Of a stretch of DNA of 46,352 nt, positions 22,629 to 24,537 are shown one piece after another (position 1 is the first letter of the stretch; each line of letters opens with the position of its first letter). The notes under the pieces are model-generated. The model worked only from the letters and a program-made list of their open reading frames with translations. It searched no databases and was not told the origin of the DNA. The DNA is from Dehalococcoidia bacterium. Lineage in GTDB: Bacteria; Chloroflexota; Dehalococcoidia; Dehalococcoidales; UBA1222. Location: positions 1-46,352 of the forward strand of contig QZJY01000001.1 of NCBI GenBank assembly GCA_003597995.1, given 5' to 3'. A program made the translations under genes and the position numbers.

Positions 22629-23756
22629 ATGGCAAAGACGAGTTTTGTCCCCAATGGAGCCAGGATCAAGGTTTTCGGATGCGGCGGCGGCGGCAGCAAC
22701 GCCATCACCCGCATGGTGCGTGAAGAAATACAGGGCGTAGAGTTCATCGCCGTAAACACCGATGCCCAAGCCCTGGCAATCACCGAATCCCCTGTCAGGA
22801 TGCAAATAGGCGAGAAGCTGACCCGCGGTTTGGGCGCCGGCGGCGACCATAACACCGGCCAGAAAGCTGCCGAAGAGAGCCGCGATGAAATCAAGGAAAT
22901 GGTAACCGGCGCCGATATGGTCTTCGTGACTGCCGGCATGGGCGGCGGCACCGGTACCGGCGCGGCCCCGGTTATCGCCCAGATATCCAAGGAATCTGGT
23001 GCCCTGACCATTGCCGTGGTCACCAAGCCTTTCTCTTTCGAAGGCACCCATCGCATGCAGGTCGCTATGGACGGCATCAGCCGCCTGCTGGGCAAGGTCG
23101 ATACTCTCATCATCATCCCCAACGACAGATTACTCGACCTGTGCGACCCCAAGACCGGCGTAGACACCGCCTTCAAGATGGCCGATGACGTGCTGCGCCA
23201 CGGCGTGCAGGCTATCTCCGAGGTCATTACCGTACCCGGCATGATTAACCTGGACTTCGCGGATGTAAAGGCTGTCATGAAGGATGCCGGCCCCGCCTGG
23301 ATGTCCATCGGCCGCGGCACCGGCAAGAACCGCGCCGTGGATGCCGCCAGAGCGGCGCTAGCCAGCCCTCTGCTGGATGTGACCATCGAAGGCTCCAAGG
23401 GTGTGCTCTTCAACGTGGTCGGCGGCGCCGACCTCACCCTCTTTGAAGTCAACGAAGCCGCTGAGGTTATCAAGCAGGCCGTCGACCCCGACGCCAACAT
23501 CATCTTCGGCGTGGCGTCCGATTCGGCCATGGGCAGCGAGGTGCGCATCACCCTTATCGCCACCGGTTTCGTCAACAAGACCGAAGTCGATACCAAGGAA
23601 GACGACGAGTTCACCAAGAAGCTCAGGAATATCAAGACCGAGGACGAGTTGGATGTGCCTTCCTTCCTGCGCCGCTGGAACCGCCCGATATCCAACCGCC
23701 AGGCCATCCCGGCGGACAAGGTAACCCGCCCGCAGATGCGCTCCTACAACCCGTAA
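22629..23756 (+). CDS. ftsZ: Cell division GTPase FtsZ
   Basis: 375 residues. The tubulin-like GTPase shows [13 protein letters not shown] (18-30), the signature [10 protein letters not shown], and the T7 synergy loop NLDFADVK. The short linker ends in the conserved C-terminal peptide [12 protein letters not shown], which docks FtsA. AAGGAGAAAAAA precedes the ATG, 31 bp after ftsA. Transcription ends at the strong terminator at 23785. Confidence 0.97.
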
Positions 23757-23784: not shown

Positions 23785-23819
23785 AAGGAGGCTGGACGAA
23801 AGTCCAGCCTCCTTACTTT
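23785..23819 (+). terminator. Intrinsic terminator of the mraZ-ftsZ operon
   Basis: AAGGAGGCTGGAC (23785-23797), a GAAA tetraloop, and GTCCAGCCTCCTT (23802-23814) form a 13-bp perfect stem followed by ACTTTT. It lies 28 bp after the ftsZ stop and may also limit the convergent msrA transcript. Confidence 0.85.
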
Positions 23820-23844: not shown

Positions 23845-24537
23845 TCAATGAGCCGCCGCTGAGGTGGAAGAGCCTGCGGCTACCTCCAGGATATGGTCGA
23901 GCGCGGGCTTCGGTAAATCGAGCCGCGACAACTCGGCGCGTAATTTCGGCTGTGAGAGATAGCCTGCCTGAAACGCATTCAGTCGGGCGGCGGCTGTGGA
24001 TTTCACCAGGTCGGCGAAATTCGGATAGACATTATGGAGAACGCGCATAAGTTCACGCGACTGTTGCAGGGAGTACTTCTGATGGTAGTCCTCGGCGGGG
24101 AAGAAATGTTTGTAGGGTAGGACATCCACAAAAGTCTTTTTCTTCAAACGCTCCTCAAGGCGCTGCTTGGACTCCTCGGCCTGGCGTTTTTGCTCGTCGT
24201 TGTGGTAAAAGATGATGTTGGCGTACTGGCCTCTCTTCTGATGGGTAGGCTCGATACCGCTCCAGAAAATTTCAAGCAGCCGTTCGTAGGAAATCACCAG
24301 CGGGTTGAACTGCAACTGGGTGGTCTCAGAATAGCCGTCCAGGTTGTGATAGGTGGGTCCGATTGAATTCCCCCCGGCATAACCTGCGACGGTCTGAACG
24401 ACTCCGCTTTCACCCCCGAACCGGGAGTCAGTCCCCCAGAATCAGCCCATGGAGAAGGTGGCTGTTTGCAATTCAGGGGTGAGGGCGGCTTCTACCGGAA
24501 CCCTTTCGTTTTCCAGATTGCGTGATTGTACTGTCAT
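23845..24537 (-). CDS. msrA: Peptide-methionine (S)-S-oxide reductase, putative selenoprotein (UGA = Sec32)
   Basis: Read through one TGA, the frame from the ATG at 24537 gives 230 residues. The N-terminus reads ATFSMG-[TGA]-FWGTDSRFGG, then TVAGYAGGN, GPTYHN, the Glu-containing GYSETTQLQF, ISYERLLEIFW and the C-terminal KTFVDVLPYKHFFPAEDYHQKY, all in MsrA order. The TGA (24442-24444) falls exactly on the catalytic Cys of GCFW. Nineteen bases later a 6-bp stem, ACUCCC/GGGGGU, carries loop GGUUC (24412-24428), as expected for a bacterial SECIS. The protein has no other Cys, as in known Sec-MsrA. No frameshift is needed. TAAAAT lies 6 bp before the ATG with no Shine-Dalgarno, suggesting a leaderless mRNA. 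The alternative is a nonsense-mutated pseudogene. Confidence 0.85.
24412..24444 (-). promoter_or_regulatory. UGA codon and putative bacterial SECIS hairpin in msrA
   Basis: UGA occupies 24444-24442. The stem ACUCCC (24428-24423) pairs with GGGGGU (24417-24412), one pair being U-G, and loop GGUUC lies at 24422-24418. The loop begins at the 20th base after UGA, against 18 in E. coli fdhF, and contains the GGU that SelB-recognised loops carry. The hairpin also codes for protein, so it is constrained on both levels. Confidence 0.7.

Follow-up and report, generated by a model that had tools for sequence, protein, structure and literature searches.

The msrA locus and its in-frame UGA

The window, i.e. 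the whole 46,352-nucleotide stretch of DNA analyzed, contains an msrA gene that is convergent with an ftsZ-like gene (22629-23756, plus strand) and is adjoined by nrdR-like and ribonucleotide-reductase-like genes, the names of these neighbors being read off their translations. The following features were delineated at the locus, with the support for each in parentheses.

23845..24537, minus strand: msrA, predicted selenoprotein gene (translation with TGA read as U; PMSR match; alignment with 4LWJ)
24442..24444, minus strand: predicted Sec UGA codon, catalytic position of G-U-FW (TGA in 20/20 long-type homologues of the order)
24411..24429, minus strand: predicted bacterial SECIS hairpin, GACUCCCGGUUCGGGGGUG (energy, bSECIS fit, frozen synonymous sites, covariation)
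24055..24465, minus strand: MsrA catalytic domain, residues 25-161 (Pfam PMSR, E 1.1e-37)
23878..24054, minus strand: C-terminal helical domain, residues ~162-220 (4LWJ alignment reaching residue 220)
23785..23814, no strand assigned: symmetric hairpin between the convergent ftsZ and msrA genes (13-bp stem; terminator scan, plus strand)

The msrA frame runs from 24537 to 23848 on the minus strand, is closed by a TGA stop at 23847-23845 and contains a single internal stop. The ATG at 24537, the longest ATG option, was taken as the start; inspection of the sequence upstream of it revealed no clear Shine-Dalgarno motif. The hairpin at 23785..23814 is likely a terminator shared by ftsZ and msrA, its role for msrA being presumptive. 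Upstream of msrA, the intergenic segment 24701-24735 forms a strong 16-bp palindromic hairpin (TGTAGGGGCATAGCATGCTATGCTATGCCCCTACG) followed by a T-rich stretch, apparently a terminator or a repeat element.

Translation with TGA read as U yields a product of 230 residues in which the in-frame TGA is residue 32, in the context ...TATFSMG-U-FWGTDSRFGG.... Thus, the TGA stands where GCFW would have its catalytic Cys, with MsrA sequence on both sides, as the initial annotation had maintained, and its further claim that the rest of the protein lacks Cys holds over the full length, given that no Cys codon is present elsewhere in the gene. The product scores 111.6 bits against the TIGR00401 (msrA) profile (cut-off 108.1) and matches PDB 4LWJ over residues 22-220 (E 3.6e-49); the top solved-structure matches are all entries for the C. 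oremlandii MsrA. The distinguishing features of the latter protein, i.e. Sec at GxFW, a helical domain and the absence of a resolving Cys, are all predicted for the window protein. By comparison with the canonical MsrA with two or three Cys (TIGR00401), the catalytic fold and the G-C-FW site are shared, whereas the canonical enzyme has Cys in place of Sec, possesses a resolving Cys and lacks the helical domain. Downstream of the UGA, the frame is intact and subject to purifying constraint (pN/pS = 0.32 against the congener, with synonymous sites near saturation). A standard gene call would reduce the gene to a 156-residue, TTG-started fragment, or label it a pseudogene, with the loss of the active site, and the same error would affect each of its relatives.

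Conservation of the UGA and of the SECIS hairpin

An msrA-like match was found in 48 of the 156 genomes of the order. In the long-type genes (E < 1e-40), the catalytic site is TGA in 20/20 cases (the window genome and 19 others); the remaining matches are shorter or partial, and the two in which the catalytic codon was read (L023, L024) have TGT. The congener protein is 66% identical to that of the window, and the identity of other TGA-bearing relatives goes down to 40-48%. Among the first 61 genomes, SelB scored above the cut-off in all 7 genomes with Sec-type msrA, compared to 32 of the 61 overall (P = 0.008). Identical copies of three of these msrA genes were found in other records, namely, that of G044 in JAQTQH010000043.1 (Dehalococcoidales bacterium), and those of G097 and G072 in two Dehalococcoidia records; by these matches, the order, and presumably the window with it, belongs to Dehalococcoidia.

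The hairpin downstream of the TGA (19 nt) has a stem of 6 bp, or 7 bp if the closing G-C pair is counted, a GGUUC loop, and a UGA-to-loop spacing of 19 nt; its predicted fold has an energy of −10.1 kcal/mol, and 3 of 200 shuffled sequences were equally stable. The 6-bp stem and GGUUC loop noted in the initial annotation are real, and the recurrence of a TGA with the hairpin in 20/20 long-type homologues of the order exceeds chance. The 45-nt fold on its own is unexceptional (z = −1.18), so its folding energy was set aside as stand-alone evidence, and the short hairpin and its conservation were used instead. According to PMC13188914, a bSECIS has a loop of 3-9 nt with G among the first two positions, an upper stem of 4-16 bp, a UGA-to-loop distance of 16-37 nt, and an MFE of at most −7.5. 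Scored against this published model, the msrA hairpin agrees with all 4 constraints, among them the loop pattern N1-G-[G|U]-N-N2.

The codons that form the hairpin are frozen at the synonymous level. Ser +6 is encoded by TCC in 20/20 sequences of the order, compared to 26% of the Ser codons elsewhere in the same genes, and Gly +9 by GGG in 20/20, compared to 12% of the Gly codons elsewhere; Gly +3 is spread over the four codons (5/4/7/4, n = 20), and Gly +13 and +20 are likewise free to vary. Inside the order alone, the covariation signal is weak, with a near-invariant stem (25 of 500 shuffles as good). When 67 distinct Sec-type sequences drawn from many phyla are considered, 344 of 402 arm cells are paired, compared to 307 ± 4.6 after shuffling of the arms, a procedure that treats related sequences as independent, and none of 5,000 shuffles reached the observed value. 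In these 67 sequences, both U-A and G-C occur at pair 19-31, and C-G, U-A and A-U all occur at pair 18-32. By contrast, among 28 Cys-type homologues, 57 of 168 arm cells are paired, which is below the shuffled mean. As judged from these comparisons, the hairpin tracks the UGA, not the protein family.

These observations bear on the reading of the gene as a pseudogene or an assembly error, whereby the TGA results from mutation or miscalling of a catalytic TGC in a decaying gene. A single-base change would suffice for this, and the source genome (1.80 Mb, 95.5% complete) is a draft of 71 contigs. However, the TGA is shared by 20 genomes of this order and by about 50 loci of other records, the downstream frame is intact and constrained, and the arms of the hairpin covary. 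With the TGA conserved in relatives, this explanation was rejected as highly improbable. The initial annotation had stated that TGC or TGT in relatives, along with further stops or frameshifts, would speak against a selenoprotein; the closest relatives have TGA, and the frame is otherwise open.

In the tree, the genus of the window falls outside a 16-row clade that comprises most of the other Dehalococcoidia sequences, and no msrA match was detected in eight other genomes of the same family. Given this isolated position and the eight genomes without a match, the genus may have gained msrA by transfer, or else the gene may have been lost repeatedly. The other Sec-MsrA genes of the order (19 genomes) resemble the window gene in the TGA, the SECIS hairpin and the domains; many of those outside the genus differ in having a lipobox-like N-terminus (a frequent feature in L017-L021 and L031-L043), and 11 of the 19 genes with a complete end encode a Cys within the last residues, whereas the window protein has neither. 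The combination of lipobox and C-terminal Cys possibly denotes a lipoprotein form that is exported and possesses a resolving Cys.

Selenocysteine machinery of the genome

A tRNA-Sec (75 bits) with the anticodon UCA (TCA in DNA) is encoded in the source genome and is followed, on the same contig, by clustered selD, selA and selB, all with profile scores above the cut-off (SelA, 553 bits; SelB, 371 bits; SelD, 360 bits). All four genes, selA, selB, selC and selD, were thus found, and the absence that the initial annotation had named as a refutation does not apply. The selD gene itself (L014:6374-7423, G000:C26) is interrupted in frame by one TGA, located at the catalytic site (LSRYSG-U-GAKL), and is predicted to encode a selenoprotein; its start-to-stop gene call begins only 3' of this TGA. 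The gene for the formate dehydrogenase alpha subunit (L134, G000:C55:18862-20859, minus strand; 867 bits) also contains one internal in-frame TGA, which likely encodes Sec. Hence at least three genes of this organism, msrA, selD and formate dehydrogenase alpha, appear to have a UGA that is read as Sec. MsrB is encoded in the same genome without an in-frame stop.

The UGA that stands in frame in msrA could also be accounted for by genome-wide reassignment of this codon, e.g. to Trp or Gly, or by reading by a near-cognate tRNA, in either case without Sec. However, TGA terminates msrA itself, and Trp is encoded by TGG two codons 3' of the UGA; the other in-frame TGAs that were met are those of SelD and formate dehydrogenase, both known as selenoprotein families, and a full Sec system is present. 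With TGA serving as a normal stop alongside this system, genome-wide reassignment was rejected, and hardly any weight attaches to this alternative. We conclude that the gene almost certainly encodes a methionine-S-sulfoxide reductase A of the 1-Sec type, with a C-terminal helical domain and with UGA read as Sec. The candidate Sec-MsrA of the initial annotation is thus supported by the frame, the machinery, the conserved UGA, the constraint on the SECIS and the family assignment; Sec incorporation and enzyme activity are predictions from sequence.

Probable reaction, candidate reductant and phyletic spread of Sec-MsrA

The closest characterized counterpart is the MsrA of C. oremlandii (Clostridium/Alkaliphilus; PDB 4LWJ, 4LWM and related entries), which similarly has Sec in G-U-FWG and no other Cys and shares the C-terminal helical domain, described for this enzyme in PMC4333827, within the region aligned over residues 22-220. 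It comes from a clostridium, whereas the host of the window gene is a Dehalococcoidia-type member of the Chloroflexota. Because these parts are also present in the window protein, which lacks Cys, the C. oremlandii chemistry is the best guide to its mechanism. SelB with Sec-tRNA(Sec) would bind the hairpin just 3' of the UGA, leading to insertion of Sec at this codon. Sec32 would then attack the sulfoxide of Met-S-O, releasing Met and becoming a selenenic acid, which, the protein being devoid of Cys, would have to be reduced by an outside thiol, most likely that of a glutaredoxin, and possibly via a Sec-Sec dimer, as proposed for the C. oremlandii MsrA.

The genome contains one match to the glutaredoxin domain (PF00462), a YruB-type protein with the CxxC motif NCSVC and no stop, which is a candidate reductant of the window MsrA. 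No Sec-glutaredoxin partner like that of C. oremlandii was found in a search for one, this sole PF00462 match being of the Cys type. Recycling of a genuine selenoprotein by something other than a glutaredoxin, to which the lone YruB-type match and the missing Sec-glutaredoxin might point, is nevertheless rather unlikely by analogy with the C. oremlandii MsrA, which, according to PMC4479559, is reduced by glutaredoxin.

Among the best 80 relatives in a one-genome-per-species collection, TGA was found in 50 of the 78 readable loci, a sample biased by ranking on likeness to the Sec-type query and by a Cys spelled out in one of the two search patterns. The TGA loci are labeled Chloroflexota, Nitrospirae, Deltaproteobacteria, Planctomycetota, Synergistaceae, Coriobacteriia, Bacillota and Acidobacteriota, among others. 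When Sec and Cys labels are mapped on the tree, 11 changes are required, at least 6 of them forced by well-supported branches, with the bootstrap unsettled and with a midpoint root that gives no direction of change. These mappings indicate that Sec and Cys have been interchanged several times in the MsrA family. Alkalihalobacillus deserti and Bacillus solitudinis (L115, L119) have Sec-type msrA, with TGA and a paired hairpin, amid Cys-type Bacillales. In the Halanaerobiaceae gene (L114), which is nested among Cys forms, TGA is present and the usual hairpin position is unpaired. Of the two loci labeled Thermoplasmata archaeon that encode this MsrA, L080 is a Cys form, and L072 was left unclassified by the motif scan. 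A tentative scenario, which we put forward at somewhat less than even confidence, is that Sec prevails, and is possibly ancestral, in helical-domain MsrA across many phyla, with several independent replacements between Sec and Cys (Cys in haloarchaea, Bacillales and Bacteroidota), and that the C-terminal Cys of the lipoprotein-like members of the order may serve as an added resolving residue.

The papers retrieved name Sec-MsrA in 'certain bacteria' and in C. oremlandii, and no description of this enzyme in Dehalococcoidia was found in the searchable literature, which includes few subscription papers. The window MsrA thus belongs to a known but sparsely catalogued type of selenium enzyme. The statement in the initial annotation that Sec-MsrA is rare in bacteria proved too strong, considering the dozens of Sec-type loci in many phyla; judging by these loci, the distribution of Sec-MsrA is wider than stated in the literature searched, a mildly new result. 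The MsrA family offers a clean natural comparison of Sec with Cys, in which the SECIS hairpin is kept in one form and lost in the other.
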